Shown: positions 4,175-51,877 of the stretch, in pieces
How positions within the stretch are numbered: position 1 is the stretch's first letter
How the letters are laid out: the number at the start of each line of letters is the position of its first letter
Source: a virus
IMG/VR virus record: IMGVR_UViG_3300000228_000002
Coordinates: 58,159 to 122,158 of that record
DNA length: 64,000 bases
Direction: 5' to 3' (one strand)
The notes under the pieces: model-generated
What the model saw: the letters and a program-made list of their open reading frames with translations, nothing else
The model's database searches: none
What the model was told of the DNA's origin: nothing
Translations under genes and position numbers: made by a program

Positions 4175-4251
4175 TGGTGCTCGGAGCACGACTCGAACGT
4201 GCGGCCTCTTCCTTATCAGGGAAGTGCTCTAACCAACTGAGCTACACCCCC
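4175..4251 (-). tRNA. tRNA-Ile (GAT), acceptor stem mispaired; CCA encoded
   Basis: The D arm (GCTC..GAGC), anticodon arm (CTTCC/GGAAG with loop CTGATAA, anticodon GAT) and T arm (GCACG/CGTGC with loop TTCGAGT) all fold correctly, and CCA is encoded (4175-4177). The acceptor stem does not: the 5' strand GGGGGTG (4251-4245) and the 3' strand TCCGAGC (4185-4179) form only two Watson-Crick pairs and one wobble. The molecule looks like a hybrid of two tRNAs or a decayed gene. The text after CCA (ATTTTGTA in genomic sense of the transcript) is shared with the neighbouring tRNA-His. Confidence 0.8.
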
Positions 4252-5892: not shown

Positions 5893-6027
5893 TCAGCCTC
5901 CTTGAGTGTCTATCTTCTCTGTAATTTCATCTACCATTCGACGAAGCTCATCAATGCTAGGCTTAGACTGTGTTGGTTCAACAGTTGGTTGTTCACTTGT
6001 TAACCACTTGAAGAATTTGATTACCAC
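5893..6027 (-). CDS. Small protein with GTG start, 44 aa
   Basis: The GTG at 6027 overlaps the last codons and stop of the helicase gene, and TAGAGGC a few bases upstream provides a binding site. The 44-residue product starts with a hydrophobic-basic segment (VVIKFFKWL) and ends with a predicted helix (SIDELRRMVDEITEKI). It fills what otherwise looks like a 138-base gap, and its own 3' end contains the AAGGAGG that serves the next gene. The function is unknown. Confidence 0.55.
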   Translation of the reverse strand: MVIKFFKWLTSEQPTVEPTQSKPSIDELRRMVDEITEKIDTQGG

Positions 6028-8807
6028 GTGATAGCCTCTAGGAACCAATTAGGAAAGAGTCCTGGGTTTCTCTGTACGAAATGTCTGAAAGAGTCATCCA
6101 TGATATAGGTATGACTCCAATCTGCTTGATGTCGTGTTGCTCTACCATAGGCCTGCATAACCGTCGTGGCAGTTAGCATCTCATAGTAACCAGAATAAAT
6201 TTCTTTTCTCAACTGGAGCAATGGGTCTCCAAGATACGGATACGGAGTCTTGGCTATAATTTGGAATCTACAGTTTCCGGAAACCACACTTTTTCCGCGT
6301 CTTCTTACCACAATCAATCCAGTACTAACTGTTACACAATATGCGTCCATTTCTGTATCGTACTCTCTATTGATGTAGTTATGCTCACCTCTAACGAATA
6401 GGGAGTAGGGACTATCATACCAATGAACTGCATGCCCATTGAACGTGGTTTTGAAACCCGATATGGCTGCTAAGGCTGCTATGGTATCTAGGTTGGATGG
6501 TAGGGAGCTTGTGTAACTCTTTTTTCTGGTATTTTTCGGGTTAGATCCATTCCAATATGGTAATTCTGCTAGTAGAAGTCTTCTCTGTCTCAAGTCGAGT
6601 CTGAATAAAGACTCAATGTCCCAATGTTTATCTTGGCTCCATTTTCCCAATGTCATCAGTGGAATAATATATGATTTGGGAACATGATAACATTCATCCC
6701 CCCTTTTGTTTACTAAAACGTGATACTTGTATTCGAGTCTATCCAACAGTTCCTTAATTCTTTTTTTCTTCCTGTCTCTTCTAAATGTTAGCCTAACGTC
6801 GGTAACATCTTCACTGGTGACCCAATTACCGTCAGCTTGCATAGCCGCTGCTAGTCTGATCTGATCATCACTAAGGTTTATCTCACTCATATTCTCGTAT
6901 ACACCACCACACACAAATTGAAGGCTTTTACCAGTTGGTGCTTCGCTAGCTTTGGTTAGCCTAGTAGTTCCTGTATCCACCTTTCTCCATAACATGGTGT
7001 GATCCGATGTCACCACTAGGTTATTGGTCATAGTATCGTATTCAGACCACCTCTTAGATTTCGTCCTAACTATTCTTTGTGGGTATTCGAAGTGGATCTT
7101 TTCAGTATTTTGTGTGTATGCAGCTACACGTACACCCTCAACTAGATTAGGAAAGGGTACCCAACCCGACTCCGTTAGAATCTCAGTTTCAGAATCATAA
7201 CAGAGCTCATCTTTTAAATCGATACCTTCAGTCATTGATGGTGAAAGTAGGACAGTGTTTTTGCTCTCTCTATGTCTGGATAGACATTCGTTTTGTTCTC
7301 TACTTGATCTTGCGAACAGTAGTCGAGCTCTCAGGTCTTGTCTGATTCCTGAGTAGATTTGGTTACAAAGGTGGTAAGTCACACCATGGATCATACCTTT
7401 ATAATCCTTATAGTGATCCATCAAATATTCAATTCGATTGATCAACTGTGGGATAACGATTGGGAGGGATTTAGCATTCATCTGGCCTACAGAATAGTTC
7501 AGATAAACAGGTCTAATCTCTTTCGGAAATGGTGACGAAGTTCTAATGATTGCAACATTCTTCTGGTCGATACCTAGCATGTTGCAATAAGTCTCATACC
7601 CAAGAATAGTGGCAGATAAGTGAATCCTAATGGGAGCCAGCTTCTTGATCTTATTGTAATATTTCTCTACTCGAACTGGGTACATCTTGAGTCTCTCAAC
7701 AAGAGTCACATCTTGTTGATTCATTTCATGATCGACCGATAAGTTACCTGAATGCAATTGTCCCTTGATGAACTTGATCTTGTGAACCAGTTGTTCGTTC
7801 TCCTCAGTGAGGGCATCTTCGTCTTCCTGGATTCTCTCTAAGATGTCTTGAAGGAACCCCTCGTACTTGGACGGATTTGCATATTTAGGAATAGAGTTCA
7901 CACCGAAGGGTGTCAGCATCTTGAGACTTAGAGCCAGTCCCACCGAAGAAGACATAACTTCTGGAAAGGAGTGTGCTTCATCAATAATGAGCATTTCTCT
8001 TGGTGATATCTGGTCTGGAACATACACAGCATATGAAATCAGAGTGTGCATATTGAGGAGTGAGAACTTGGAGTCGGATAATGCTCTACTTTTGGCAGTA
8101 CCGTAGTCGCATCTTCCAAAATTCTCTCTACACTCTTTTCTTGATTGCTTTGTCTTGTTACATGGAGAACTACTGCAGTCAAAACCATCATTCACATTGC
8201 ATCGATAGTTTGACTTACCACGAAGATCAGCCAACCAGTTGAATTCTGAAAGGTACTGATCTTGGAGAGCCTTGTTAGCAGTGACCAGATAACCCGAATA
8301 TTGTCTCAAAAGAGAGGCAATTGCAATAGGTGATTTACCTACTCCCGTTGGAGCATCAATGATGATGTCAGTTATGTCCTCATTGGCCAGGTATTCATCC
8401 AATTTGGAGAATATGGCATGCTGCGTGTGACGGATCTCGCTAAATGGGAAAGTATTCTTGTATTCTTTCTGTGGTAGCAATTCTTTGATTTGGCTTTCAT
8501 AAGCATTTGAAACATCTTCTATTCCGGCCACTATGTAACAGAGAGTTCCAGATAAACCCGATCTCATAGCACTGATTACAGACAACATGTGGTTGTGCTG
8601 TTGCTCGGTTGTCTTCTCCCATTCATCTTTTTTGAACATGTCGCCTTTCTTGTAGTCTTGCAATATGTAGTCAAAATTCTGGGAAGTGAAATTGGTTTCG
8701 TTGGCTAGAAAGTCTGTATAAGTATTGAGTGCGTCCTCGAATGGCTTGCTCGACTCGGTTACTTCGAGTAATTTGGAAACAAATTTTCCAATAACAGTAT
8801 CTTTCAT
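6021..8807 (-). CDS. DinG/Rad3-type Fe-S helicase interrupted by an intein
   Basis: This superfamily 2 helicase has Walker A APTGVGKS (residues 152-159), a DEAH box (276-279), and a cysteine cluster between them (C203, C211, C216, C225, C233) like the 4Fe-4S domain of XPD and DinG. A motif III-like HLSAT (396-400) and motif VI-like QAYGRATR (885-892) are also present. Residues 536-845 are an intein inserted just after motif V (EGIDLKDEL). Without it the helicase is 618 residues long. It would unwind forked or recombining DNA during replication or repair. The gene heads the leftward operon at 8807. Confidence 0.93.
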   Translation of the reverse strand: MKDTVIGKFVSKLLEVTESSKPFEDALNTYTDFLANETNFTSQNFDYILQDYKKGDMFKKDEWEKTTEQQHNHMLSVISAMRSGLSGTLCYIVAGIEDVSNAYESQIKELLPQKEYKNTFPFSEIRHTQHAIFSKLDEYLANEDITDIIIDAPTGVGKSPIAIASLLRQYSGYLVTANKALQDQYLSEFNWLADLRGKSNYRCNVNDGFDCSSSPCNKTKQSRKECRENFGRCDYGTAKSRALSDSKFSLLNMHTLISYAVYVPDQISPREMLIIDEAHSFPEVMSSSVGLALSLKMLTPFGVNSIPKYANPSKYEGFLQDILERIQEDEDALTEENEQLVHKIKFIKGQLHSGNLSVDHEMNQQDVTLVERLKMYPVRVEKYYNKIKKLAPIRIHLSATILGYETYCNMLGIDQKNVAIIRTSSPFPKEIRPVYLNYSVGQMNAKSLPIVIPQLINRIEYLMDHYKDYKGMIHGVTYHLCNQIYSGIRQDLRARLLFARSSREQNECLSRHRESKNTVLLSPSMTEGIDLKDELCYDSETEILTESGWVPFPNLVEGVRVAAYTQNTEKIHFEYPQRIVRTKSKRWSEYDTMTNNLVVTSDHTMLWRKVDTGTTRLTKASEAPTGKSLQFVCGGVYENMSEINLSDDQIRLAAAMQADGNWVTSEDVTDVRLTFRRDRKKKRIKELLDRLEYKYHVLVNKRGDECYHVPKSYIIPLMTLGKWSQDKHWDIESLFRLDLRQRRLLLAELPYWNGSNPKNTRKKSYTSSLPSNLDTIAALAAISGFKTTFNGHAVHWYDSPYSLFVRGEHNYINREYDTEMDAYCVTVSTGLIVVRRRGKSVVSGNCRFQIIAKTPYPYLGDPLLQLRKEIYSGYYEMLTATTVMQAYGRATRHQADWSHTYIMDDSFRHFVQRNPGLFPNWFLEAITW
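6273..7202 (-). other. Intein with LAGLIDADG-type homing nuclease domain, in the helicase
   Basis: The 310-residue insert begins with Cys (C536) in a block-A sequence CYDSETEILTESGWVPF. It has the block-B pattern VVTSDHT (598-604) and ends VVSGN followed by Cys (C846) as the +1 nucleophile. The centre carries a LAGLIDADG-like helix (AAAMQADGNW, 653-662) and a second half with WNGS and YTSS motifs, as in inteins with a DOD endonuclease. The penultimate residue is Gly rather than His. Excision would rejoin motif V (EGIDLKDEL-CRFQII). Confidence 0.9.
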
Positions 8808-12068: not shown

Positions 12069-12830
12069 ATGAATAATGAAATCAGTGAAATTGTCAACCA
12101 TCTTGCACAGGGTGACATAGACAAAGCCTTGGCATTATCAAGAGACCTACCAGAGATCAGACAGAAAATCCACTCATCAATTGAATTTTTATCCTATCCC
12201 GAGAAGTACAAGGAATTGTATTCTTCCGATATGGAGGACATCGACGAAAGGAAGCCAGGTCTTTTCATAAATTCAGAGCCAGATTCACGACAACTCAAAA
12301 TTATTGAACACATAGAGCTTTTGAATAATAAATGGAGAATGCTTGATATTGGGTGTGCAGATGGCAGTCTGATATCGTATCTTCTTAAGAGACAGTTGAT
12401 AAGATTTGGCCATGGAGTTGATGCATGGGAATCAGGAATCAAGTATGCCAAGGCATGGGCTAAAGACAAGAATGTTAAAGCAGAATTCACTTGTTCTCTA
12501 GCAGAAGATTTTAATGACACCGACTTGTATGATGTGGTTGTTATGGGTGAAGTTCTTGAACATGTTATTCATCCTGAAACACTGTTTAAAAAAGCTCACC
12601 AACTTATAGGACCACAAAGACACCTGATCATTACAGTGCCAATCGACAGACCACCCGTAACTGAAGAAGAAGCTAAACATCTTCTTTCTGGGAAACCAAA
12701 TCTGCATGTCAGATTGTTCAATATAGACAAAATTTATCACATGTCTAAAAATGCAGGATTCGAGTTTAGAAGACTAGAAATCGAGGGTAGAAACTGGAAG
12801 AATCTAGTAGTTACCATGCAGAAATTGTAA
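12069..12830 (+). CDS. SAM-dependent methyltransferase (class I)
   Basis: The 253-residue protein has motif I MLDIGCADGS (residues 91-100), an acidic residue after the next strand (GVDAW), a VVVMGEVLEHV motif with the E-V-LEH signature of type-11/12 methyltransferases, and a HLIITVP strand. About 85 residues precede the Rossmann core and are unrecognised. The ATG at 12069 follows AAGGA. It is immediately upstream of two radical-SAM genes and presumably belongs to the same cassette. The substrate (peptide, small molecule or nucleic acid) cannot be told from sequence. Confidence 0.85.
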   Translation: MNNEISEIVNHLAQGDIDKALALSRDLPEIRQKIHSSIEFLSYPEKYKELYSSDMEDIDERKPGLFINSEPDSRQLKIIEHIELLNNKWRMLDIGCADGSLISYLLKRQLIRFGHGVDAWESGIKYAKAWAKDKNVKAEFTCSLAEDFNDTDLYDVVVMGEVLEHVIHPETLFKKAHQLIGPQRHLIITVPIDRPPVTEEEAKHLLSGKPNLHVRLFNIDKIYHMSKNAGFEFRRLEIEGRNWKNLVVTMQKL

Positions 12831-12857
12831 TACCTAGTAATACCTAGTAATACCTAG
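12828..12857 (+). repeat. Three tandem copies of TAATACCTAG
   Basis: The ten-base unit is repeated perfectly three times starting at the stop codon of the methyltransferase, and a fourth partial copy (TAATT) follows. The unit encodes stop codons in two frames. It sits 13 bases before the first radical-SAM start and separates the two genes. A similar ATACCTAG occurs at 35358, again after a stop codon. Confidence 0.85.
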
Positions 12858-12870
12858 TAATTGAGGGAAG

Positions 12871-13878
12871 ATGCTAATAGAAAAGAAAAGAAACTCCGAA
12901 GGAGAATTCTTCGTAAATTTTTTCGAGTTCTGCAATATGAGATGCTCATTCTGTTGGCAAGATCATGAGAACCTTGCTGGTGTTGAGACCATAGTGGAAC
13001 GAGCATGGGATATAATCGACAGAGTTAAGAAAGATAAGAGAACTTATTTCATTGTTAACCTGATGGGAGGAGAACTTTTTGCAGATTCTCTACCTGATAG
13101 CATCTTCGACTCTTATAGAGGTCATGTCACGGAGCTCAAGAACAACTTTCCGAGTGGAAAAACATTTCATATTAACTGGGTGACAAACCTAGTGTATTCC
13201 GAGAAGAGACTCAATGAAGTAACAGGTCTTGTAGACTGGTGTAAGAGCCAGGGTGTAAGTAGTAACCTTACTACATCATTCGACTTTGCAGGTAGATTTA
13301 CTAAAGAACAGAAAGAAACATTTCGAGCTAACATTTCAGCAGCTAAACCTTATTTAGGTACTGTGTCTGTGGTTCTAACGAAACCCAATATTGAAAGAAT
13401 GATGAAGGGCAACGATGAACTTTTTCAATGGTTGTATGATAACAACTTTTACATTTACTTCGACTACTACTCACCAGAGAAAAATTTCAAACTCAATGCT
13501 CCACCAGACAAACTTCTTCAAGACGGATTATTGTACCTCTTAAAGAACTATCCAGAAGTTTGGCCTATTAAAGGTTGGAGAGTAAACGACATCAATAAGA
13601 TGACATGTATGAGTTCCATGATTGTTGACCACACTGGATATAAGGGGCAATGTAGAGCACTTCTCACTACCAGTGTTGCTGACAAAATGGTAAGCAAGGT
13701 TGAAATTGAAAACAATTCATCAATGGAGAAGAGTTTCACTAACAAATACAATTGCTTGGAATGTGAATTCTTCCACAAATGTGGAATGGGTTGTTTTCTT
13801 CAGCATGACTTCAAAGGCAAAGAAGAATTGGACGAGTGCCTGTATAAGGAAGTTTTCAGGGAGATTGAGAAGTGCTAG
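12871..13878 (+). CDS. Radical SAM protein with SPASM domain (paralog 1)
   Basis: The N-terminal CNMRCSFC (C21, C25, C28) is the CxxxCxxC ligand set for the radical-SAM 4Fe-4S cluster. A GGE motif for SAM binding is at residues 66-68. The C-terminus has a textbook SPASM set: C246-x9-G256-x4-C261, then C295-x2-C298-x5-C304-x3-C308 and C323, which would bind two auxiliary clusters. SPASM enzymes usually modify peptides or proteins (sactipeptide maturases, PqqE, anaerobic sulfatase maturases). The start has a GAGGGAAG binding site. It is paralogous to the next gene, sharing CNxxCxxCxQDH, LMGGELF and KPNI..M.KG segments. Confidence 0.92.
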   Translation: MLIEKKRNSEGEFFVNFFEFCNMRCSFCWQDHENLAGVETIVERAWDIIDRVKKDKRTYFIVNLMGGELFADSLPDSIFDSYRGHVTELKNNFPSGKTFHINWVTNLVYSEKRLNEVTGLVDWCKSQGVSSNLTTSFDFAGRFTKEQKETFRANISAAKPYLGTVSVVLTKPNIERMMKGNDELFQWLYDNNFYIYFDYYSPEKNFKLNAPPDKLLQDGLLYLLKNYPEVWPIKGWRVNDINKMTCMSSMIVDHTGYKGQCRALLTTSVADKMVSKVEIENNSSMEKSFTNKYNCLECEFFHKCGMGCFLQHDFKGKEELDECLYKEVFREIEKC

Positions 13879-14915
13879 CAGAAAGAATGTTGTCACAGAA
13901 ACAATCGAAAGTAGCTGAGATAGAAATCCATCTCTTCGAAAATTGCAATATTGCCTGCGGTTATTGCTCTCAAGACCACAATGATGCTGGTCCCAACCAA
14001 GAGTCCTTTGATAGAAAGAAAAAGTTGGCTAAACAGTACATGGCAAAGTTGTCTTGGGATAGTGAAAATTGCAGAATTTCCCTCATGGGTGGAGAGTTGT
14101 TCCAGGATAAGTTCGATTCTGCAGTATGGGAAATGTACGAGAAGCTGGTTGTCGATCTTTATACTGAAGCAAAGAAGTGGTTCTCAGGACAAGTAGTAAT
14201 AGGTGCCACTACAAACTTTTTGTTCTCTGATGATTGGCTACTGGAAGTACTCATATATGAGTTGAAGAACAACCACGGTATCGACTTCAGATTAAAGACC
14301 TCATATGATATGAAGGGGAGACCTTTCACTGATAGACTTACTCAGAATTTCATGAAGAACCTGACTCTTTTTCGCAGGTTCACAGACTCGATCTCTGTTT
14401 GTTTACATAAGCCAAACATACAGGCAATGATCAAGGGTGAAGACTCAATACTGAAGCTAATTTCTTATGATACAGAATTATGCTTCGATTGGTACATACC
14501 AGATGGCAAGAACGATGCTAAATATTTTCCTACAGATGAAGAATGTAAACAAGCATTACTTCACATTATGAAAGAGTACCCTGAATCTTCCCCAGTAAGA
14601 GAGATGCTAGCGGGAGAAATAGGGCAAGTTCAATGTTGTTCCGAGAACAGAGTTCTCATACCTGCTAACGAGATCGTATCCAACTGCATATATCTTCCAA
14701 ACCAATATAAAAATCCCATGAATCGGGAAACTACATATGATAAGGCTACAACCTTCATTAAAGAGCAGGGTTGTACCGAATGTCCACACTTTATGAGTTG
14801 TAGCTTGTACTGTTATGCCTCATCGGACTATGCAAAAAGGATTCAAAATGCAAACTGTTTCATTAGAGAAGCTTATGAACAGTCCATCAATCAAAGAGAT
14901 CCAGATCAACAGTGA
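13872..14915 (+). CDS. Radical SAM protein with SPASM-like domain (paralog 2)
   Basis: C25, C29 and C32 form the radical-SAM cluster motif, and GGE is at residues 73-75. The C-terminal cysteines C255/C256, C272, C301-x2-C304-x5-C310-x3-C314 and C329 follow the SPASM pattern, but the glycine of the first half is replaced. The GTG at 13872 overlaps the stop of paralog 1; an ATG at 13887 is the alternative start. Tandem duplication with divergence suggests the two act on different residues of one target or as a heterodimer. The substrate is unknown. Confidence 0.9.
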   Translation: MLAERMLSQKQSKVAEIEIHLFENCNIACGYCSQDHNDAGPNQESFDRKKKLAKQYMAKLSWDSENCRISLMGGELFQDKFDSAVWEMYEKLVVDLYTEAKKWFSGQVVIGATTNFLFSDDWLLEVLIYELKNNHGIDFRLKTSYDMKGRPFTDRLTQNFMKNLTLFRRFTDSISVCLHKPNIQAMIKGEDSILKLISYDTELCFDWYIPDGKNDAKYFPTDEECKQALLHIMKEYPESSPVREMLAGEIGQVQCCSENRVLIPANEIVSNCIYLPNQYKNPMNRETTYDKATTFIKEQGCTECPHFMSCSLYCYASSDYAKRIQNANCFIREAYEQSINQRDPDQQ

Positions 14916-15432
14916 TGGAAGTTTAGAAATTTCGTATGCCCCAAGATCTGCAGAAGCAATTACTATAGCAGTATCTAGAGGACTGTCAATCACTGACGAC
15001 ATAGAGATGATATCCCAGGACAAAGGCAGTGTGGTAGTAGTGTTCGGATCCGAGGAGACAGAAGACCTAATGGATTATCGAGCCATCAAGTACAAAGAAG
15101 ATGGGGAACAAGTAAAGAAGTACTATTCAAAGAAATTTTGGGAGAAACCAAACGTTCAACTACCTATCGGAGCTAGATTGGCAAACCAGTTTGGCATTGG
15201 TTATTATTCTGACAGATCAATTTACGACATGTACTTCTTTCACGAAAATCAGGTAGTTGTGGAGAAGCATTTTGGATTCAAGATTGGTCTTCCGTACAAG
15301 GAAGAACTGCGTTACTACAAGTACGAGTCGGGACTGTATGGTGTGACTTACGACGAAGATTTGCAAGTGCACAATCTCAAGCGATATCTTTACCCATTCG
15401 ACCCATACTGTAAAAACCCTTCATACATATAA
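14848..15432 (+). CDS. Unknown protein in the radical-SAM cassette, 194 aa
   Basis: The start at 14848 has AAGGATTC upstream and lies within the 3' end of the second radical-SAM gene (68-base overlap), implying tight co-expression. An ATG at 14875 is an alternative. The protein has a beta-rich N-terminal part (IKEIQINSDGSLEISY), many tyrosines in the second half, and one cysteine close to the C-terminus. I recognise no family. Its position makes it the natural candidate for the substrate, a leader-binding partner, or a structural protein modified by the SPASM enzymes; this is inference. Confidence 0.75.
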   Translation: MQTVSLEKLMNSPSIKEIQINSDGSLEISYAPRSAEAITIAVSRGLSITDDIEMISQDKGSVVVVFGSEETEDLMDYRAIKYKEDGEQVKKYYSKKFWEKPNVQLPIGARLANQFGIGYYSDRSIYDMYFFHENQVVVEKHFGFKIGLPYKEELRYYKYESGLYGVTYDEDLQVHNLKRYLYPFDPYCKNPSYI

Positions 15433-16848
15433 ATGCGAGACCAAATCATGTCCAAGACAGAGGTAGTTATAGAAGAGGATTTTGAAGATAATTGCATGGA
15501 AATTGCTGCAGACGAAAATCGCACGATTGTAGCCTCTCACCAAAATTGGGTGGGTCACCACCCTGCGGAAATCGCAGCTGCAAAGATTAAGAAAGCATCA
15601 GGTAACTCTGAAGATCAACTACTTCGTGATCTTCGAAAAGACATCTTCACTATACCACTTCTCAAACAAGAGGACTTGGTTCCATTGTTTCATCAATTGG
15701 ATGGTATCATCACTGAGATAGTCAACAGAATTCTATCCTCATCACTTACTATGAGAAGTAGAGTGGTTGACGTGATGGTCAAGGTAGCTGCAGGTAACAC
15801 ATATAACAAGAACATCTACGAAAAAGAAACATCAGCATTAAACGAAAAAAGATCTAGTACATATAAAGACCACGAAATCGACTTCATGAATAGATGCTAC
15901 GATTTCCTCAGAGAGGTTGGCAAGAAAGGCCTTCTCTCGGAAGAATTGGCTAAGCCCCAGTTCATCAGGGGTGTCTACGAAGAAATACTGGAAGAGTTCG
16001 TTGATATGACAAAAGACTATGTGTCAAATCATCACAGTGCACTATATGCCAGATTATTGAACGATACCGACAAGCACTCCAAGCACCTTTCTAATTGCGT
16101 TGCCATTGAGAATAAACTGATGTTCAAAGATCAGTTGGGTTATTCCCTAATCAGAGATGCAGAACAGGCTCATAAGAAATACATCGAAATCAGATCAGTC
16201 ATCATAGCCCCATATCTTAGAGCAGTGTTTTCACTGGCCAAGAACCTAGGTAAAAACGTTCACCAGATTCTCGACAACTTCCAGAATGGCTCAATGGGAT
16301 TGATACGTGCAGTATCTTGTTATTCTATTATTAAGCCAACCTCTTTCTCATCTGTTGCAAAATCCTGGATTAAGCAAATGATGCTTCTTTGTATCAAGGA
16401 AGAAGCCAATTTTGTGAAATTACCTATTGCAACATGGCAGTCATTCACAGCTATGGAGAAAGTGCGACAGAAAGCAGGTTGTGAAATTGACGATTACGAA
16501 TGCATAGCCAAGGCCAATAAAGCCACTCTCGACAAGGTGAAGTCTGTCTATGAGTCGGTAAAGATGTCACAAGTGTTCTCAATCAATAAGACATATGATC
16601 AGAACGAGAAATTGACTCTTGAGGATGTAATTCCAGATGAAAAAGAGTCTTCGGACGACGTGATTATAGGGGAGCTCCGAGAGTATATTGAGAAGGCTAA
16701 TCTGAAATTGCAAGAGAAAAAGGTCATTGCCTTAACTCATGGAATTGCAGATATCATAGTTAGTAAAAGACTAAAAGAAGAAGATATAGAGAAAGAGAAG
16801 CTTGTGCAAGCAGCACGTAAAATAGGTTTCTCGTTATCTTATCTTTAA
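15433..16848 (+). CDS. Sigma-70 family RNA polymerase sigma factor
   Basis: Residues 72-100 (PLLKQEDLVPLFHQLDGII) resemble region 1.2. A long unconserved segment follows, then region 2 at about 255-330: the YLRAVFSLAKNLGKN helix, an LDNFQNGSMGLIRAV segment equivalent to DLIQEGNIGLMRAV, FSSVAKSWIKQMM equivalent to FSTYATWWIRQAI, and KLPIATW for the start of region 3. Region 4 is shortened: EKKVIALTHGI is present, but the chain ends at AARKIGFSLSYL, where a recognition helix would begin. It probably directs host polymerase to phage promoters. The ATG follows the previous stop directly. Confidence 0.85.
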   Translation: MRDQIMSKTEVVIEEDFEDNCMEIAADENRTIVASHQNWVGHHPAEIAAAKIKKASGNSEDQLLRDLRKDIFTIPLLKQEDLVPLFHQLDGIITEIVNRILSSSLTMRSRVVDVMVKVAAGNTYNKNIYEKETSALNEKRSSTYKDHEIDFMNRCYDFLREVGKKGLLSEELAKPQFIRGVYEEILEEFVDMTKDYVSNHHSALYARLLNDTDKHSKHLSNCVAIENKLMFKDQLGYSLIRDAEQAHKKYIEIRSVIIAPYLRAVFSLAKNLGKNVHQILDNFQNGSMGLIRAVSCYSIIKPTSFSSVAKSWIKQMMLLCIKEEANFVKLPIATWQSFTAMEKVRQKAGCEIDDYECIAKANKATLDKVKSVYESVKMSQVFSINKTYDQNEKLTLEDVIPDEKESSDDVIIGELREYIEKANLKLQEKKVIALTHGIADIIVSKRLKEEDIEKEKLVQAARKIGFSLSYL

Positions 16849-16953
16849 TAAGCGGTATAGAAGCATAAATGGTATAATGGTATAAAATCGGTCAGAACAA
16901 AAACTGGCTGTTAACAACGGTATAGTGGTATAATTGGCATATGGAGGTATAGT
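16849..16953 (+). promoter_or_regulatory. GGTATA-repeat control region with extended -10 promoters
   Basis: Six copies of GGTATA lie in about 100 bases (16854, 16871, 16879, 16919, 16927, 16946). Two of them continue as GGTATAAT (16871-16878 and 16927-16934), perfect extended -10 boxes. A TTAACA lies near 16911. The region precedes the ssDNA-binding-protein operon and ends with a GGAGG binding site. It could be a strong multi-start promoter, a regulator-binding array, or both. Confidence 0.6.
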
Positions 16954-17961
16954 ATGCAAGGTATGATGGACAATCGTTACTCGAACATGGGCATTTCAGG
17001 CGGCGGATTCGCAAAAGAAGAACGCTGGGACTCAAAAATCCAATGGTATGAATTAAAACCTGGCACTTGGAATCAAATCCGAATCTTCGGACCCGTATTC
17101 ATCGTTGCTCAGAATTGGTTCACTACTCTGAAAGGCAAAAAATTCGCTCTTTTCTCATTAGCATGGGATCCATTTGAGCGTTCTTACACAAAAACAGACA
17201 ATGATCCTATTTGGCAATTCTTCGGAAACCCATTTGATCATGCAGACGAGAGAATCAAGGCAATTGCTCCTCGTCAACAAGCATATGTACAGGCGTTTAT
17301 TCGCCCTACAGTAGGCATCCCACAAGGTGGAGATTATCGTCCACTTCGTCTCCCTATTTCGGTGATCAACGGTATTCGTAAGGCTGCTGAGTTGAACTTC
17401 AAAATGGATGCTAACAATCAAGTGGTTATTGGACAAGATGGTAAGCCAGAAATTGCAGATCCTACTGATCCACAGTATGGTCTTGATGTACTAGTTTATT
17501 ATGATCCAAGCAAAACCGGATCTGAGAAGTACTCTGTTCAATTGGGCGGTAAATCACCGATCACTCAAGCAGAAGCAGCTTATCAGCCACACTTCATGGC
17601 TTGGCACGAAATTATCAAAATGCCTTCAGTAAACGAAGTGAAAGAAGCTCTCTCACGTAACGGTTACATGGCACTTGCTAACAATGCTGGAGCTAATTCA
17701 TTCGGAAATGTTTCAGAAGTTGGCGGTTCTATGCCTGCTATGAATGTGGGAGCAGCACCTGCAGCTCCGGTAGCACCAGCAGTAGCACCAGGCCCAATGG
17801 CACCTCCTGCTCCTCAAAACATGACTCCTCCTGCACCAGCAGCACCTCCTGCTCCTCAAAACATGACTCCTCCTGCACCAGGCATGGGGGTGGGAATTGG
17901 TCCTGCACCAGTAGCTCCGACACCAACGGTACCAGCACCACCAGCACCGGGAAAGTATTAA
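16954..17961 (+). CDS. Putative single-stranded DNA-binding protein, 0-frame product
   Basis: The 335-residue protein has a globular N-terminal part (to about residue 245) with KPGTWNQIRIFGP and an LQWYELK-like lead, in a setting (next to recombinase and SbcCD) where gp32-like proteins are found. A tail of Pro/Ala/Gly/Met repeats (PPAPQNMTPPAP, twice) follows. Such low-complexity tails occur on ssDNA-binding proteins. The start follows GGAGG. The stop at 17959 comes two codons after a G_GGA_AAG slippery heptamer, so a longer frameshift product is predicted. The ssDNA-binding call is inference; the gene itself is certain. Confidence 0.75.
   Translation: MQGMMDNRYSNMGISGGGFAKEERWDSKIQWYELKPGTWNQIRIFGPVFIVAQNWFTTLKGKKFALFSLAWDPFERSYTKTDNDPIWQFFGNPFDHADERIKAIAPRQQAYVQAFIRPTVGIPQGGDYRPLRLPISVINGIRKAAELNFKMDANNQVVIGQDGKPEIADPTDPQYGLDVLVYYDPSKTGSEKYSVQLGGKSPITQAEAAYQPHFMAWHEIIKMPSVNEVKEALSRNGYMALANNAGANSFGNVSEVGGSMPAMNVGAAPAAPVAPAVAPGPMAPPAPQNMTPPAPAAPPAPQNMTPPAPGMGVGIGPAPVAPTPTVPAPPAPGKY
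17949..17955 (+). promoter_or_regulatory. -1 ribosomal frameshift site GGGAAAG
   Basis: The heptamer is in the exact X_XXY_YYZ register of the upstream frame (G GGA AAG), followed by TAT TAA. The following gene is in the -1 frame, that frame is open across the site, and it has no Shine-Dalgarno before its ATG. GGGAAAG is the heptamer used in the lambda G/GT tail genes. A -1 shift would give a 491-residue fusion (16954-18428) that keeps the Pro/Ala tail continuous and adds a cysteine-rich end. Confidence 0.72.
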
Positions 17962-17972
17962 CCCCTGGACTG

Positions 17973-18428
17973 ATGGCTCCACCGTCGGTACCTGTACAGG
18001 CTCCACAACAAACAACGGTTGCACCACCACAAATGGTGCAACCTGTTCAACCAGTTGTAGAACCGATAGCTCAACCTGTTGCTAGCGCACCAGTAGCTCC
18101 TGCACCAGTAGCTCAACCTGTTGCAAGCGCACCAGTAGCTCCTGCACCAGTAGCTGTTCAGAATACGACACCAGATTCAGGGGAAGCACGGTTCAAGCTA
18201 CCAGGAAAAACTGCCAAAGTTACTGCGGCAGAGTTTCAAATGGTAATTAATGAGTATGCCGAGAAATCTAAAAATACTAGTCCCAAGGTCGACAAATTCG
18301 TGTACCCCCTAAAAGCAGGTACAAAGGATTATGAAGGGGTTAATGTATTTAGTTGTTTTGGCTCTTACAAGTCAGACGAGTACTGCATTAAATGCCCTCT
18401 CAGAAAGAACTGCATTATCAACAGATAG
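17973..18428 (+). CDS. Pro/Ala-rich extension with C-terminal cysteine motif (likely -1 frameshift partner)
   Basis: Residues 1-65 are Pro/Ala/Val/Gln repeats (APVAPAPVAQPVAS, repeated) continuing the composition of the upstream tail. The last 80 residues are a compact domain ending in CFGSYKSDEYCIKCPLRKNC, four cysteines that could bind zinc or a cluster. The ATG at 17973 has no ribosome binding site, the frame is open upstream through the GGGAAAG site, and it is in the -1 register. I therefore regard it as the 3' part of a frameshifted ssDNA-binding-type protein and not an independent gene. Confidence 0.7.
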   Translation: MAPPSVPVQAPQQTTVAPPQMVQPVQPVVEPIAQPVASAPVAPAPVAQPVASAPVAPAPVAVQNTTPDSGEARFKLPGKTAKVTAAEFQMVINEYAEKSKNTSPKVDKFVYPLKAGTKDYEGVNVFSCFGSYKSDEYCIKCPLRKNCIINR

Positions 18429-18437
18429 AAGGTGCTA

Positions 18438-18725
18438 ATGAATCAGATAGGATTAGATCAGTATTTAGAGATCAAAGAAGATATCGAAGTAGGTGTGGTT
18501 GTATTTTTCTTAGAGGAGAAGTACAACCACCTCATTAGTGAGTCTCATTGGCTAAATTTCACTTCACTAGAAGTATATGCAGTTAAGATGAGTGCTGAAG
18601 ATTTCAAGTCTATGGACATAGGTGTCCACCCAAAAACATTCATCATTAAAGATGGCAAAGAAATTTTTGAAATTAATGGCATACCTTCTGAGGATGCTAT
18701 AGGAGAGTTATATGGGTCTAAGTAG
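18438..18725 (+). CDS. Thioredoxin-fold-like small protein, 95 aa
   Basis: Features of a thioredoxin fold are visible. There is a hydrophobic strand VGVVVFFLE, a helix, an EVYAVKMSAEDF strand-helix, a GVHPKTFIIKDGKEI segment like the cis-Pro loop (..PT.lfk.Gk.v), and a final GIPSEDAIGELY helix. The CxxC active site is absent (EEKYNHLI at that place), so it is probably a binding protein and not a redox enzyme. The ATG at 18438 (AAGG upstream) is preferred over a GTG at 18432. The end overlaps the recombinase start by 14 bases. Confidence 0.6.
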   Translation: MNQIGLDQYLEIKEDIEVGVVVFFLEEKYNHLISESHWLNFTSLEVYAVKMSAEDFKSMDIGVHPKTFIIKDGKEIFEINGIPSEDAIGELYGSK

Positions 18726-20109
18726 TTTAGATAACATTTCAGATTTACTAAGTGGAGCAGTTAAAGCAGCAGAGAAAGCTACTAAGCTAACATCTGTTTT
18801 CCAGAATAAGAGATTGGACGGAAAGCTAGTCCGATCGACTGGGTTACTATACCTAGACTACAAGATAGGTGGTGGTATTCCTTCAGGTAAGATCATCGGT
18901 ATTTCGTCTGATGAACACATGGGTAAATCAGCCCTTATGGCAGAAATGACGTGGGAACAATTACAAGATGGTGGTCACACGGTGTATTTCGACGGGGAAG
19001 GTACACAAGATCCAATTTTCTTAGGGAAAAGAGGTATCGATTATCAGTCATACCGTGGAAGAAGAAACAAAAATGGCGACCTTATTCCGGGCCAGAGAGA
19101 TAAAGTGTGGTTCTATCAACCGCATACTGGCGATCAATTCAAAAAATACATTCACATGCTCTGTACTGCACTACCTGAGAACAGAGAATTACAAAAACCA
19201 CCACTATTGTTCGGACTAGATTCGGCACTTTCTATCGTATCTGGTGATATTGCAGAAAATATTGATGGTAACAACACAGCAATGCATGCCAAAATGTATT
19301 CTGAGCTCCTACCCATCGTGAATGCGTCTCTACTTCGTTCGGGTGCTTCTCTGGTCTATACCAACCAACTTCGAGAAGATGTTGGTGCAGGTTTCAAAGG
19401 TATGGGGGACACAAAGTATGAACCAGGTGGTAAAGCACTAGGATTCTTTGCTTCATGTCGTTTGCGCCTTCAGAAATCTAAAGCCAAGATGAATAACGGT
19501 ATAGACGACCATCCTTTCCACGAAGAGTTCATCCCAGATATTAAGCCTAAAGCAGGCGGTGTATGGGAAGAAGGAACAACAATGGAGAAGGACAACAATC
19601 TTGATCGTTCCATTATTGTACAGTTCAAAACAATTAAGAACAAGTTCTTTACACCATTCAAAGTAGGTTACTACAGAATCGTTTTCGAATCTGCAGGTGA
19701 GACTGGTTATGGTTTCTGCCCAGTATTCGATGTGTTCTCTACTCTTCTAGAAATGGGCCTTATTGTTAAGGCTAACAACAAGAAGACATATAAGCTGAAC
19801 TTGGATGAGAAAACCAAAGAAATTGAAAAGTGGTTACCAGCAGTTTTCGATTACTACACACTTAAAGCGGCTATCCTAGCTCATGATAAGCGTGAATTAA
19901 TTCAAGCTATTAGAAGAATCACTATTGAGTCTGGATGGGCTTACGAAGGTGTAGCTGTTGAGGTTTCACCAGAGACAGAAGAATTCGATCCTGCTACTGG
20001 CGAAGTTTACGAAGTTCCTGCAGTGGCATTACCTGTTGGAGCACCACCAGTTCCAGGAGCACCACCAGTTCCAGGCATGGGCATTATGAACAAAGGGAAA
20101 ACCAAATGA
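18712..20109 (+). CDS. RecA/UvsX-family recombinase
   Basis: The 465-residue protein has LYLDYKIGGGIPSGKIIGI (RecA: ..LD..lGGG.p.GriveI), a P-loop at residues 63-73 ending MGKS, a FDGEGTQDP segment (RecA: iDaE.a.dp), a LLFGLDSALSIVS Walker B strand, and VYTNQLRED with the conserved Asn-Gln of the L2 region. It would catalyse strand exchange in recombination-dependent replication with SbcCD-like proteins downstream. The C-terminus has a short GAPPVPGAPPVPG tail. The binding site is GGAGAG, and the gene is coupled to its neighbours on both sides. Confidence 0.93.
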   Translation: MGLSSLDNISDLLSGAVKAAEKATKLTSVFQNKRLDGKLVRSTGLLYLDYKIGGGIPSGKIIGISSDEHMGKSALMAEMTWEQLQDGGHTVYFDGEGTQDPIFLGKRGIDYQSYRGRRNKNGDLIPGQRDKVWFYQPHTGDQFKKYIHMLCTALPENRELQKPPLLFGLDSALSIVSGDIAENIDGNNTAMHAKMYSELLPIVNASLLRSGASLVYTNQLREDVGAGFKGMGDTKYEPGGKALGFFASCRLRLQKSKAKMNNGIDDHPFHEEFIPDIKPKAGGVWEEGTTMEKDNNLDRSIIVQFKTIKNKFFTPFKVGYYRIVFESAGETGYGFCPVFDVFSTLLEMGLIVKANNKKTYKLNLDEKTKEIEKWLPAVFDYYTLKAAILAHDKRELIQAIRRITIESGWAYEGVAVEVSPETEEFDPATGEVYEVPAVALPVGAPPVPGAPPVPGMGIMNKGKTK

Positions 20110-29131: not shown

Positions 29132-29353
29132 ATGGTCGTTCGTTCTTACTACAAAGATGGAGCTTTATCAGGTATCATCGAAGTCACAAAAATGGTTGAC
29201 TCGAAGCCAGCTCAGTATCAAATGTGCCTGATCCACTCGATCAACGGCATACTGTTAAAGAAAGATTTTGATTCAGCAGACAAGGCCTTTAGTAAGGCTA
29301 CCACTCTCGGCTACATCAGAACGAAATGGAATACTAAAGAGATCAAACTATGA
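29132..29353 (+). CDS. Hypothetical protein, 73 aa
   Basis: The ATG at 29132 is chosen over an in-frame TTG at 29126. The product is a small basic protein with alternating beta-type residues. The ribosome binding region coincides with the 3' strand of the predicted structured element. It is coupled to the following fibre gene by an ATGA overlap. The function is unknown; a fibre assembly partner is possible. Confidence 0.55.
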
Positions 29354-32010
29354 GTACATTGCAAAATGGATATTTAAGAATATATAACCAATTAGTGGCA
29401 TATCCGCTTACTATCAAAATTGATTTGATTGGTGATGTAGCCAAGTCCATTAGTCTGGATGCTAATGGTTACGAAGATATTCCACTGGAAATCTATTTTG
29501 CAGGTGTGTCTGACTTAGTGGTATTGCGTGAACAAGGTCTGATAACCTACGATGATCCAACTTTCATCTCTAATGGTGTTACTGGTCCACGTGGTGCCAC
29601 AGGGCCAGGTGTTGGTGAACAGGGTGTTACTGGTCCACAGGGTATCCAAGGAGAGCAAGGCTCAACTGGGGTCCAAGGTATTCAAGGGAACACTGGATCT
29701 CAAGGTCAAACAGGTATTCAAGGTCTTGGTCAAACTGGTTTACAAGGACCACAAGGTACTCAAGGTCAAACAGGTATTCAAGGTCTTGGTCAAACTGGTT
29801 TACAAGGTGAAACCGGCATTCAGGGACCACAAGGTGATGCAGGGTCTACTGGTATTCAAGGACCAATTGGATCGACTGGTATAGACGGTATTCTAGGAGC
29901 ACAAGGTCCAGCAGGGTCTACTGGTGCAGGAATTCAAGGCCCAACTGGTGCTCAAGGAAATCAAGGACAACAAGGAACTACTGGTCTGCAAGGGCCACAA
30001 GGGTTTATGGGTGTTACAGGAGCACAAGGCCATCAAGGAACTCAAGGTCAGCAAGGTCAACAAGGTACCACTGGCTTCGGAATAACTGGTCAACAAGGTA
30101 CTACTGGTCAATCTGGTATTAACGGATCTCAAGGTCAAACCGGGGTTCAGGGTGTACAAGGTCAAACTGGTGTCCGTGGTGATGATGGGGTAGACGGTGC
30201 AGCTGGCCCTCAAGGACAACAAGGAACAACCGGTGCTCAAGGTGCCAAAGGCTCTACGGGGCTTAAAGGCGACACAGGATCTCAAGGTATTCCGGGTACC
30301 CAAGGACAACAAGGTACCACTGGTTTTGGTATTCAAGGTCAAACTGGTGTCCAAGGCTCACAAGGACCACAAGGGACTACGGGGGTTGGCACAGTAGGGA
30401 CTACGGGACAACAAGGTCCTACGGGTATCTCTGGACTACAAGGAAATACTGGTGTTAAGGGTTCTCAGGGGACAACTGGTGCCACTGGCGATCAGGGGTC
30501 AACTGGTGCGGCTGGAATTCAGGGTCAAACTGGTGCTCAGGGTCAACAGGGTAATCAAGGTGTAACTGGTGCTCAAGGTGAGACAGGTGCCAAAGGTGCT
30601 ACTGGTTTTGGTGTAACCGGATCCAAAGGTGACACTGGTGCACAAGGATCTCAAGGTGAGACTGGATTGGCTGGCACTACAGGTGCTCAAGGTACCACGG
30701 GATCACAAGGCCAACGCGGAGCTACTGGTCTACAGGGTAATGATGGAAGTGATGGAACGACAGGTGTTAAAGGTGTAACTGGTGTACAAGGTGTAACTGG
30801 TGCCACTATATATGGACCAACTGGTCTGCAGGGACCAACAGGTCAACGTGGAGCTACCGGACAGGGAACTCCTGGTACTCAGGGGGCTACTGGTGTCCAG
30901 GGTGACAAAGGTCATACAGGCTTATCAGGAAGCCAGGGGACTACAGGTATCCGTGGAGAGCAAGGCGAAACTGGAACACAAGGGGTACAAGGTACTCAAG
31001 GTGTAATTGGATCTCAAGGTCATACGGGTGTTGTAGGTCAAATAGGAGCAACAGGCGTTGCAGGCAGCATAGGATCACTTGGAGCAACCGGTGTTCAAGG
31101 TTCTCAAGGAACCACGGGTGCTAGAGGACATACAGGAGCATTGGGTGAAACTGGTGTTGCTGGTGAAACTGGTATATCAGGACCGACTGGTGTCCAAGGT
31201 GACACTGGGGTACGTGGTCACACAGGTGCTGATGGTATCGGTATTCAAGGTCAAACAGGTACAGCTGGACCACAGGGTGTCCAAGGAAACGTAGGGTTTA
31301 CAGGACTTCAAGGTGGTCAGGGCGATACTGGTGTTCAGGGTAATACAGGAATTCAAGGACAAACCGGAATTCAAGGACAAACCGGAATTCAAGGTTCTAC
31401 AGGTACTCAAGGTCTAGGAATAACTGGTTTAAGAGGACCCACTGGGCCACAAGGTACAACTGGACCGCAAGGTGTGGGGGCTACTGGTCTACAAGGTATT
31501 CCAGGTGTCCAAGGTGAGCAAGGTGAAACAGGCCCAGCAGGTGTAGGATTCACCGGTTTACAAGGCCCACAAGGTGCCCCAGGAACAATTGGCCCACAAG
31601 GTGAAACTGGTATCCAAGGTGACGACGGTGGTGAGGGTATTCAAGGTCCTATCGGTGCTACGGGTATCCAAGGAACAACTGGTCCTCTCGGGCAAACAGG
31701 TGTTCAAGGAACAACTGGTCCACTAGGTAACACTGGTGTTCAAGGTACAACTGGCCCAGACTTCTCAGCAGACAGAAGAATAGGTGTGACAGCCATTGCC
31801 AATGCTTCTGATACTATAGTTGTAGCATTTACCACTTTAGGTACCACAAATTATTCTGTTTTGGTTGAAGTTCAGAACACGGTAGACCCGACACCATTGC
31901 ATTTCTCACATACTATCATAGCTAAATCGAATACAGGATTTACCATAAAGATGAATGCAGTTACTGATTCGGCAAACTATATTCTGAATTGGCTTGCTAT
32001 AAGATACTAA
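29350..32010 (+). CDS. Collagen-like phage fibre protein, 886 aa
   Basis: Residues 1-75 form a non-repetitive N-terminal domain, presumably for virion attachment. Residues 76 to about 805 are almost uninterrupted Gly-X-Y triplets, mostly GxT-GxQ-G, with a few single-residue interruptions. The last 75 residues are a beta-rich C-terminal domain that could trimerise the fibre or bind receptor. Collagen-like repeats in phage fibres are established. Internal DNA duplications are visible: 29701-29747 is repeated exactly at 29761-29807, and an 18-base unit is repeated around 31348-31392. A second gene of this type starts at 63165. Confidence 0.92.
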
Positions 32011-36989: not shown

Positions 36990-37501
36990 TGAGATATTGC
37001 GAGTGTGGTTCTGAAATTCCGTACAGAGCTATAATTGATGGCAAGTATAGAAACCTACGTAATCGTACTAGGTGCCTAACTTGCCTACCATTTCTGACTA
37101 GTCCTTATTCCGCCAATGAGGAAGAAAGACAGCAGAGGGCCTTACAGAAAGGTAGAGAGAAGCAGAAGCGTCACTATGATAAGATGAGGGATCAACTTGG
37201 TGAGGGTCCTGTCAAGATAAGACGTAGGGAATTTAAGGAGAAGTTGATAGCTCACTTTGGTGGAAAGTGTATAGGGTGTGGATACAATAAATGTTCAGAG
37301 GTACTCTGTTTTCATCATATAAATCCTGAAGAAAAAGAGTTCTCTCTTTCCAAACGAGAAATGGTCTATTCCTATGATAGGTTATTAGCTGAGGCAAATA
37401 AGTGTGTACTATTGTGTTCCAACTGCCATATGGAACTGCATGCAGGAGAAGAAGACATAAAAGAGATCGTAGAAAAGTGGGACTGTGGTGCAATTGGTTA
37501 G
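36989..37501 (+). CDS. HNH endonuclease overlapping a tRNA gene, 170 aa
   Basis: The protein has an N-terminal cysteine set (CECG...CLTC), a basic helical middle, and a C-terminal HNH module: CIGCGYNKCSEVLCFHHINP, then CVLLCSNCHMELHAG. It overlaps the preceding gene's stop by one base, and its last eight codons lie within the tRNA gene that starts at 37479. It is probably a homing endonuclease inserted next to, and possibly targeting, the tRNA locus. Confidence 0.85.
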   Translation: MRYCECGSEIPYRAIIDGKYRNLRNRTRCLTCLPFLTSPYSANEEERQQRALQKGREKQKRHYDKMRDQLGEGPVKIRRREFKEKLIAHFGGKCIGCGYNKCSEVLCFHHINPEEKEFSLSKREMVYSYDRLLAEANKCVLLCSNCHMELHAGEEDIKEIVEKWDCGAIG

Positions 37502-37556
37502 CGCGGGCCGCTCATAACGGCCGAGTTGGTGGGTTCGAGTCCCCCCGGTCCCACCA
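37479..37556 (+). tRNA. tRNA with CAT anticodon (Met, or Ile2 if modified); CCA encoded
   Basis: The acceptor GGGACTG/CGGTCCC pairs over seven positions with one wobble. The D arm is GTGC/GCGC and the anticodon arm GGCCG/CGGCC with loop CTCATAA (anticodon CAT). The T arm GTGGG/CCCCC has one T-C mismatch, and the discriminator is A followed by CCA. The paired first base (G1-C72) argues against an initiator tRNA. It could be elongator Met or, if lysidinylated, an AUA-reading Ile tRNA. The HNH gene overlaps its 5' end. Confidence 0.92.
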
Positions 37557-41951: not shown

Positions 41952-42048
41952 GGTAATACATATCTGGAAGATGGTGTTATCAGACAAGAGGTTATACTTA
42001 GTCGAAGAAAGGGTAGAGAATGGCGGACAGGAAACTCAAAGAATTTGA
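41920..42048 (+). CDS. Small overlapping protein, 42 aa
   Basis: A 42-codon frame overlaps the end of the putative small terminase by 32 bases and the start of the large terminase by 29. It has a modest AGGCA upstream. Its existence would make translation continuous across the junction. It has no recognised motif and could be spurious. Confidence 0.35.
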   Translation: MEAILKVGNPEVIHIWKMVLSDKRLYLVEERVENGGQETQRI

Positions 42049-49607: not shown

Positions 49608-49636
49608 GCTGATCTGCCAAGTGTAGAAACAGTCAC

Positions 49637-49660
49637 GGAGACCCCTTAAATGGGGCCTCT
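49637..49660. terminator. Intrinsic terminator-like hairpin
   Basis: GGAG-A-CCCC, loop TTAAAT, GGGG-C-CTCT forms an 8- to 9-bp stem with one A-C mismatch. It is followed by GCTTATTT. It lies 30 bases after the scaffold-like gene and at the 3' end of the converging leftward gene, so it may serve both directions. Confidence 0.6.
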
Positions 49661-49951
49661 GCTTATTTCTGATACGTGTTGTTTATCTCGTCCACAAGTA
49701 CGTATTCCTGATTCCAATATCGTCCTAAGTCGATCAGATTGGACTTGATCGAAAAATATTGGCATACCTGTGGCTTCTAATTCCTGCACTGGCAATTTGA
49801 ACATACCTTTCTCATCACTACGTATGTTCGTTATCACTATGCCCTGCAATTTTGGATTAGACGGAAGTACGTCTCTATAGGCTATAGATAGGGTTAAAGA
49901 GTTATAGTAACCACTCTTCTTTGTAAGAATTTCCAATACTATCTCTTTCAT
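49646..49951 (-). CDS. Hypothetical protein, 101 aa
   Basis: A leftward gene with GGAGGG three bases from its ATG. The alpha/beta sequence has no recognised domain. It overlaps the next leftward gene by four bases. The pair interrupts the rightward head-gene cluster, so it may be an inserted accessory module. Confidence 0.6.
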   Translation of the reverse strand: MKEIVLEILTKKSGYYNSLTLSIAYRDVLPSNPKLQGIVITNIRSDEKGMFKLPVQELEATGMPIFFDQVQSDRLRTILESGIRTCGRDKQHVSEISRGPI

Positions 49952-50187
49952 TTTCCCTCCTTGACTAGGGCTTCTTTTAGCTTGTCATAGTAGTCCAAAT
50001 CACCCCTTTTGGCAATTACAGATCCATTGTCCACCAAAAGCGATAATACACTAAGACCGTCTTTACACTTTGCCAATTTGTGGCCAGCTATAATGGCAGC
50101 ACTTCGAATAGTGTATTCTACAGATTTCCTCAGTCGAAGCATGATATCCTGGATTACCCTTGCATGGTATAGTATTTCGATGTTCAT
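49948..50187 (-). CDS. Hypothetical helical protein, 79 aa
   Basis: The AAGGGG binding site lies a few bases upstream of the ATG at 50187. The protein is helical with a basic N-terminal half (MLRLRKSVEYTIRSAAIIAG) and a lysine-rich end. It is translationally coupled to the 49646 gene and divergent from the head protein gene at 50317. No family was recognised. Confidence 0.6.
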   Translation of the reverse strand: MNIEILYHARVIQDIMLRLRKSVEYTIRSAAIIAGHKLAKCKDGLSVLSLLVDNGSVIAKRGDLDYYDKLKEALVKEGK

Positions 50188-50316
50188 AGATACCCCTTTT
50201 ACACAGTATACAATCCACTATATTTTTCATATTATCTTTTTCATAAATGCTATAGTGTTTATTCTAGGTAAATACAGTAGCCTAAATTTGTTAATTAAAC
50301 TCTATAGGAGAGATTT

Positions 50317-51024: not shown

Positions 51025-51051
51025 TCATTACGTCCCAGACAATATGATGAA

Positions 51052-51079
51052 AGAAAGACCTCCTTCGGGAGGTCTTTCT
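51052..51079 (+). terminator. Strong intrinsic terminator with TTCG tetraloop
   Basis: A perfect 12-bp stem (AGAAAGACCTCC / GGAGGTCTTTCT) closes a C-TTCG-G tetraloop, 28 bases after the head-protein stop codon. The stem's own 3' side is T-rich. This is one of the clearest terminators in the window and isolates the highly expressed gene. Confidence 0.9.
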
Positions 51080-51127
51080 GTATGTGGATGGGTCTTAATT
51101 TGTCTAAAAGACTCAATGAGAGGCACC

Positions 51128-51832: not shown

Positions 51833-51840
51833 GTATAAAA
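51831..51840 (+). promoter_or_regulatory. AGGTATAAAA promoter-like box
   Basis: AGGTATAAAA overlaps the stop of the 2H gene and lies about 40 bases upstream of the methyltransferase. It resembles the TAGGTATAAT box at 61001. No -35 element is evident. Confidence 0.35.
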
Positions 51841-51877
51841 TCTAGTATGGATGATCGACATATCTTAAGGCTGGCCA

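Follow-up and report, generated by a model that had tools for sequence, protein, structure and literature searches.

Tandem radical-SAM/SPASM enzymes of a viral record as probable members of an apparently undescribed modification module of large phages and predatory bacteria

The DNA analysed here, hereafter the window, is a stretch of 64,000 nucleotides from the virus record IMGVR_UViG_3300000228_000002 of IMG/VR (positions 58,159 to 122,158) and forms the last 64 kb of this linear record of 122,158 bases. It carries a single run of genes on the + strand that encode a class I S-adenosylmethionine (SAM) methyltransferase, two adjacent radical-SAM enzymes with SPASM cysteines (rSAM1 and rSAM2), a 194-aa protein and, directly downstream, a sigma-70-type factor (Table 1). 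The rSAM1 and rSAM2 genes overlap by 7 bp and the rSAM2 and 194-aa protein genes by 68 bp, the start of the latter being backed by the aligned starts of its homologs at loci L034 and L036. An earlier sequence-only reading had described the first four genes as a phage cassette, and these four open reading frames are present as it described them.

The rSAM1 protein carries C21xxxC25xxC28, G66G67E68 and the SPASM pattern C246-x9-G-x4-C261 ... C295-x2-C-x5-C-x3-C308 ... C323, exactly as the sequence-only reading had written it, and rSAM2 carries the same set of motifs with slightly different spacing. The two paralogs are 28% identical. Their scores against the curated models are all under the cut-offs: rSAM1 reaches 27.0 bits with PF04055 (cut-off 29.5) and 18.2 with TIGR04085 (cut-off 27), while rSAM2 reaches 13.9 bits with PF04055 and does not match TIGR04085. 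The profile search proposed at the time as a check thus brought no score above a cut-off, and the motifs themselves stood: CxxxCxxC of the AdoMet cluster, GGE and the seven SPASM cysteines (C-x9-15-G-x4-C...C-x2-C-x5-C-x3-C...C; positions 246, 261, 295, 298, 304, 308 and 323) occur without exception in the 54 distinct relatives compared, both window proteins included. A QDH motif is also found in all of them, save one that has QEH. Since all ten cysteines and GGE are kept throughout, the motifs of the window enzymes are not due to chance, and both enzymes are predicted from them to bind Fe-S clusters and to cleave AdoMet. The only solved relative of the enzyme profile is the radical SAM protein 5wgg (E 3e-4), which we take to be CteB, a thioether-forming SCIFF maturase.

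Scans of viral contigs with the single window proteins found no close relatives, and profiles were needed to reach them. In tblastn searches, rSAM1 and rSAM2 each match one same gene, rSAM-B (B-type), in Agrobacterium phage Atu_ph07, Sinorhizobium phage Phosso, Burkholderia phages FLC6, FLC8 and SURPRISE13 and Pseudomonas phage DT01. The identity of rSAM1 with its B-type counterpart in Atu_ph07 is 37%, and with a protein of a Bacteriovoracaceae metagenome-assembled genome (MAG) 42%; rSAM2 shares 33% identity with the second member of a tandem pair in the same MAG. In the tree, each window enzyme groups with its counterpart, rSAM1 with L092_664 (98/85) and rSAM2 with L092_1683 (100/99), pairings to be taken with caution because the branches are long.

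In these reference phages, rSAM-B belongs to a cluster with about four to six radical-SAM genes in all, which mostly includes a cupin, 2-oxoglutarate (2OG)-Fe oxygenases and unknown proteins, and which adjoins virion structural genes. A profile built from six sequences found 133 viral contigs, 80 of which were fetched. Gene order is constant across the fetched loci: cupin (F5), rSAM-A, F4, F3, F2, rSAM-B, further radical-SAM enzymes and oxygenases, and F6. The relatives therefore lie in conserved clusters and are not scattered singly, the outcome that had been named beforehand as adverse to a common system. With their substrate-like gene (F4, see below), these clusters support the earlier proposal of a protein-modifying system built on SPASM enzymes and probably linked to the virion or its fibres; nothing points to a host polymerase or a ribosomal protein, which had been put forward as another target. 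This enzyme set, only part of which is carried by the present phage, is widespread, common to large phages and predatory bacteria, and apparently undescribed. One group of viral contigs also encodes a tryptophan halogenase in the module (PF04820, E 1e-72; L067:15139-16476 and its relatives), and halogenated products are therefore possible. Some clusters encode a B12-binding radical SAM protein (family 29; L241:10572-12308), which suggests C-methylation.

Nearly every viral locus fetched with rSAM-B encodes F4, which mostly measures 170-300 aa, a tandem subtype being shorter (125-140 aa), and which ends with CHxSCHxSCHxSRGRR. In an alignment of 77 F4 proteins with a mean column identity of 31%, the sole fully invariant columns are C, H and R of this tail. 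Scanning for nothing but the DNA motif yielded 119 loci, among which 115 encode the C-terminal tail; radical-SAM genes of the family are carried by 108 of these 115, and the remaining ones mostly have short flanks. Because the DNA motif scan imposed the CH spacing, the argument from tail invariance rests on the enzyme-fetched loci. In the predicted structure of F4, a folded domain modelled with confidence precedes a disordered tail (predicted local distance difference test score, pLDDT, 86 overall and about 49 in the tail). This structure has no relative in the PDB, and its clear matches among viral models are a few phage proteins, including gp170 of Atu_ph07. This gp170, the CHSSCHASCHNSRSRR protein, is the F4 of Atu_ph07; the corresponding proteins are gp72 in FLC6 and QTH80265 in DT01. 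In the virion proteome of Atu_ph07, CDS 170-215 form one of three clusters that together contain most virion proteins (PMC6102473), and the published numbering agrees with the Atu_ph07 record (gp198 portal, gp204 prohead core). As a family, the clusters display what characterizes ribosomally synthesized and post-translationally modified peptides (RiPPs), i.e. a maturase-linked substrate gene with a conserved or variable core, although the F4 gene was not found in the present record. We found no evidence for cleavage of F4, and no short precursor with a leader and a cleaved core. One F4 variant (L080:7508-8188) has several CHSSCHS-type blocks in series ahead of the final SARGRR.

The module is also found in bacteria. 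Outside this phage, the tandem rSAM1-rSAM2 arrangement was encountered once, on a contig of 3.7 kb from the Bacteriovoracaceae MAG. Further contigs of this MAG encode rSAM-A, F4 (...CHNSCHSACHNSRGRR) and F3, as well as 2OG-Fe oxygenase, rSAM-C, rSAM-D, cupin and F6; a homolog of the 194-aa protein is encoded as well, beside plainly bacterial genes. Strong rSAM-B matches were obtained in 12 of 129 genomes of the class of this MAG, one of them on a 4.15-Mb contig, and in about a dozen genomes of this class the module is chromosomal. The module occurs at ten bacterial loci, with F4 tails such as CHSSCHSSCHGSRGRR, CHSACHDNCHSSRGRR, CHSSHSSHSSHSSRGRR, CHSNHCSHSNHGSRGRR, CHGNFPPPCHGSRGRR and CHTNVPTPPPCHASRGRR. 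Their CH...SRGRR ends are fixed and their middle is variable, as in RiPP cores. These tails also bear on the idea that the tail simply binds a metal, the Fe-S enzymes of the cluster merely assembling or loading the site with no covalent change of the CH pairs. The three Cys-His pairs of F4, spaced at i, i+4 and i+8, do look like a metal-binding array. However, to load a metal a cluster would not need oxygenases on top of four or more radical-SAM enzymes, and most cysteines are lost in some cores (CHSSHSSHSSHSSRGRR, CHGNFPPPCHGSRGRR), which makes this explanation very improbable.

Furthermore, the gene that adjoins the bacterial module encodes an S74 intramolecular-chaperone domain at all four loci tested (the MAG, L239, L243 and L245), and a prepilin N-methylation motif is present in this neighbour at three of the four. 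Peptidase_G2, a related type of intramolecular chaperone, was just under the cut-off in one phage neighbour. The bacterial module resembles the Bdellovibrio mosaic adhesive trimeric (MAT) fibres with S74 domains (PMC10769870) in that it adjoins an S74-domain gene of surface-fibre type, whereas the protein next to the module mostly begins with a prepilin motif. The paper on MAT fibres mentions no radical-SAM enzymes (PMC10769870). The presence of the module next to S74 fibre genes within this bacterial class, to which the MAG of a predatory bacterium belongs, suggests a shared surface-recognition device. A conserved protein of about 190 aa ending with NxRHWVKxK is also encoded beside the bacterial S74 gene (L245:15915-16496, L239:12533-13084, L220:1563-2153); the two that were tested match no Pfam family.

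Other genes of the module are present in the same record as the window cassette, outside the window (Table 1). The orthology of its rSAM-C and rSAM-A to the DT01 and Atu_ph07 enzymes is clear by sequence comparison. Hence, the view of an isolated cassette does not hold, the tandem pair belonging to a larger set whose members are scattered over this genome. Neither a CHxSCH motif search nor a reading of all C-termini revealed a substrate in the window or in the record. Two candidates were rejected: a 70-aa open reading frame with GTRRS between rSAM-A and rSAM-C (record 17795-18004), which starts with TTG inside a stop overlap, and the C-terminus of the terminase (...SRGGKRR, window 44900), probably a coincidence.

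Table 1. Genes of the window cassette and other genes of the module in the same record
Feature	Position	Strand	Match or remark
Class I SAM methyltransferase, 253 aa	window 12069-12830	+	PF13489 (Methyltransf_23), E 1.2e-17
rSAM1, 335 aa, B-type radical SAM/SPASM enzyme	window 12871-13878	+	CxxxCxxCxQDH, GGE and seven SPASM Cys
rSAM2, 347 aa, divergent B-type radical SAM/SPASM paralog	window 13872-14915	+	
194-aa module component (family 25)	window 14848-15432	+	predicted fold moderately like ABBA prenyltransferases
Sigma-70-type factor	window 15433-16848	+	Sigma70_r2, E 1e-6; phrog_351, E 9e-18
rSAM-C	record 16690-17724 (outside window)		50% identical to DT01 rSAM-C
rSAM-A	record 18004-19074 (outside window)		39% identical to Atu_ph07 rSAM-A
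Cupin	record 19398-19937 (outside window)		
Two F2 proteins	record 48318-50358 (outside window)		
Two 2OG-Fe oxygenases	record 50287-51851 (outside window)		

The 194-aa protein had been presented as unrecognised; indeed, Pfam, NCBIfam and PHROGs yielded no significant match to it, and the PDB no sequence match. Its homologs (family 25) occur in about 15 radical-SAM clusters, where they mostly adjoin F6 or a radical-SAM gene, and when viral contigs were scanned with a family 25 profile, no further copy turned up away from such clusters. Its AlphaFold2 model (pLDDT 82, predicted TM-score 0.79) has ABBA prenyltransferases as top Foldseek matches (prob 0.98-1.00, query TM-score 0.41-0.53). These include the RiPP enzymes PagF (6pgn, E 8.9e-4, prob 1.00) and PatF (4bg2, prob 0.99), with query TM-scores of 0.47-0.53. 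The predicted fold is thus moderately like that of ABBA prenyltransferases such as PagF and PatF, which are its best structural matches and act in a similar context of peptide tailoring. By contrast, these enzymes have about 300 aa instead of 194, superpose with a root-mean-square deviation of 6-7 Å and share no sequence similarity with it. Since the protein is much shorter than ABBA enzymes, prenyl transfer is a lead only.

The sequence-only reading had considered that the 194-aa protein could be the substrate, and more generally that the two SPASM enzymes and the methyltransferase could act on it as a stand-alone cassette. The overlapping genes of a single run would agree with such an arrangement. 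However, the protein belongs to a conserved family of its own, about 15 clusters encode its homologs together with a separate substrate gene, and its predicted fold resembles enzymes rather than a precursor. We therefore reject it as the substrate; it is a true component of the module. Moreover, the methyltransferase has no relative in the reference phages, in the genome of the closest relative or in any fetched cluster, so that the partnership proposed for it was not confirmed, and it is probably a neighbour outside the conserved module. As other module genes also lie in the same record, a stand-alone cassette is highly unlikely. The sigma-70-type factor, absent from the recurrent gene families of other module loci, is likewise a neighbour and no part of the module elsewhere.

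Among known systems, the closest are the SPASM RiPP maturases (CteB, PapB for ranthipeptides, HxsB/HxsC, DynA and FxsB), which share with the module enzymes CxxxCxxC, GGE, the SPASM cysteines and a nearby substrate gene with a conserved C-terminal repeat, and which provide their best weak profile matches. However, these matches are far under the family cut-offs, and the module differs in that each cluster encodes four to six radical-SAM enzymes of different kinds, in its substrate, a folded protein of 125-300 aa instead of a short leader-core peptide, and in its presence in phages. The F4 tail, a run of H-x-S with this spacing in nearly all F4 proteins, also recalls the His-Xaa-Ser system. The bacterial variant CHSSHSSHSSHSSRGRR of locus L240 matches HxsA (TIGR03979) weakly, over the repeat only (E 0.009, 16 bits of 121.65). 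The radical-SAM enzymes of the module score 19-26 bits with HxsB (TIGR03978) and HxsC (TIGR03977), whose cut-offs are 370 and 268, and thus do not belong to these families; neither model is among the matches of the window enzymes. In contrast to that system, the tails have a Cys per repeat and a fixed SRGRR end, and a cupin and oxygenases are present.

The literature searched on phage RiPPs and radical SAM offers annotations or a metabolic proposal only; no paper with CHSSCHSSCH was found, preprints being outside the search, and the word "radical" is absent from a jumbo-phage survey. The radical-SAM cluster gp70-gp82 of FLC6, a member of the module described here, was published as annotations, without a named substrate or modification system (PMC8066314). 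Campylobacter phages CP220 and CPt10 carry 11-12 radical-SAM genes per genome, thought to be metabolic, with no substrate named (PMC2853527). By analogy with this proposal, the radical-SAM enzymes of the module could make or alter a small molecule or a cofactor for the infected cell, and 2OG-Fe oxygenases, cupins and the tryptophan halogenase of some clusters also occur in small-molecule pathways. We nevertheless find this unlikely, since a near-constant CH...SRGRR protein with a variable core, the position near fibre genes and the SPASM cysteines fit a protein substrate better. The Campylobacter genes may themselves represent a related modification system.

Taken together, co-occurrence of the genes, motif invariance, orthology, the module genes of the record and predicted folds form the observed basis of the module. 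Therefore, rSAM1, rSAM2 and the 194-aa protein are probably members of a RiPP-like pathway that modifies a C-terminal protein tail. For catalysis, the order of steps, display, a role in attachment and the target in this phage, we infer the following scheme. In large phages and predatory bacteria, the pathway would act on the tail, typically CHxSCHxSCHxSRGRR, of a small folded protein encoded beside tail- or pilus-fibre genes. The folded N-terminal domain of F4 would first provide a built-in means of recognition. Several radical-SAM enzymes, including the two B-type enzymes of this phage, would then introduce cross-links or perform other C-H chemistry on Cys, His, Ser and Arg of the tail, the B-type enzymes accounting for one or two radical steps. 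The 2OG-Fe oxygenases, the cupin and the 194-aa protein would tailor the tail further. Once modified, it would be exposed on the virion or a fibre, where it would most likely aid binding to the host surface. It is possible, if on balance doubtful, that a dedicated pathway builds a heavily modified CH...SRGRR tip on an attachment-fibre protein, and that this tip is a chemically non-standard receptor-binding or adhesive device, part of the virus particle and shared with Bacteriovoracia.

Several points weigh against this pathway. The chemistry of the module is so far predicted from sequence, and the radical-SAM enzymes might do metabolic chemistry instead. The match of the 194-aa protein to ABBA folds is partial (TM-score 0.47-0.53; 194 versus about 300 residues), and the presence of gp170 in the Atu_ph07 virion is deduced from the boundary of the CDS 170-215 cluster. 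In addition, F4, F3 and F6 were not found in the record with profiles or C-terminal patterns in all frames, and the module genes are spread here over more than 50 kb, unlike those of other phages. This absence and this dispersal could mean that the phage has lost the substrate gene and retains the enzymes as decaying leftovers. Yet the four radical-SAM genes, the cupin, the oxygenases and the 194-aa protein gene are all open reading frames, and the radical-SAM Cys motifs are kept. Furthermore, the record, in which primase-like and clamp-like genes but neither DNA polymerase A nor B were found, is probably incomplete, being linear and devoid of these polymerases. We therefore consider a remnant improbable, and retain a tail-modifying pathway as the preferred explanation.

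Four to six radical-SAM enzymes and oxygenases, at times joined by a halogenase or by a B12-type radical-SAM enzyme, would make up post-translational chemistry of a complexity that the literature searched does not link to a virus particle. The invariant tail provides a concrete candidate substrate for radical-SAM genes of giant and marine phages so far called metabolic or left unexplained. Cultured carriers of the module are available, namely Atu_ph07, FLC6, DT01 and Phosso.

Other features were noted in the window. Two tRNA genes are predicted, tRNA-Ile (4175-4242, - strand) and tRNA-Met (37479-37556, + strand). A helicase-like protein of 928 aa (6021-8807, - strand) contains, as judged by eye, a sequence resembling an intein insertion (CYDSETEILTESGWVPF ... 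VVSGN). The PHROG matches of a DNA methyltransferase (51878-54430) fall into two separated blocks (235-434 and 683-850), which suggests an insertion, for instance an intein or a homing element. The large terminase subunit, which ends with SRGGKRR, and the portal protein are encoded at 42020-44917 and 45314-47386, respectively. Collagen-like or tail-fibre repeat proteins are encoded at 29350-32007 and 63165-63998; the record ends inside a gene of this type, likely at an assembly break.

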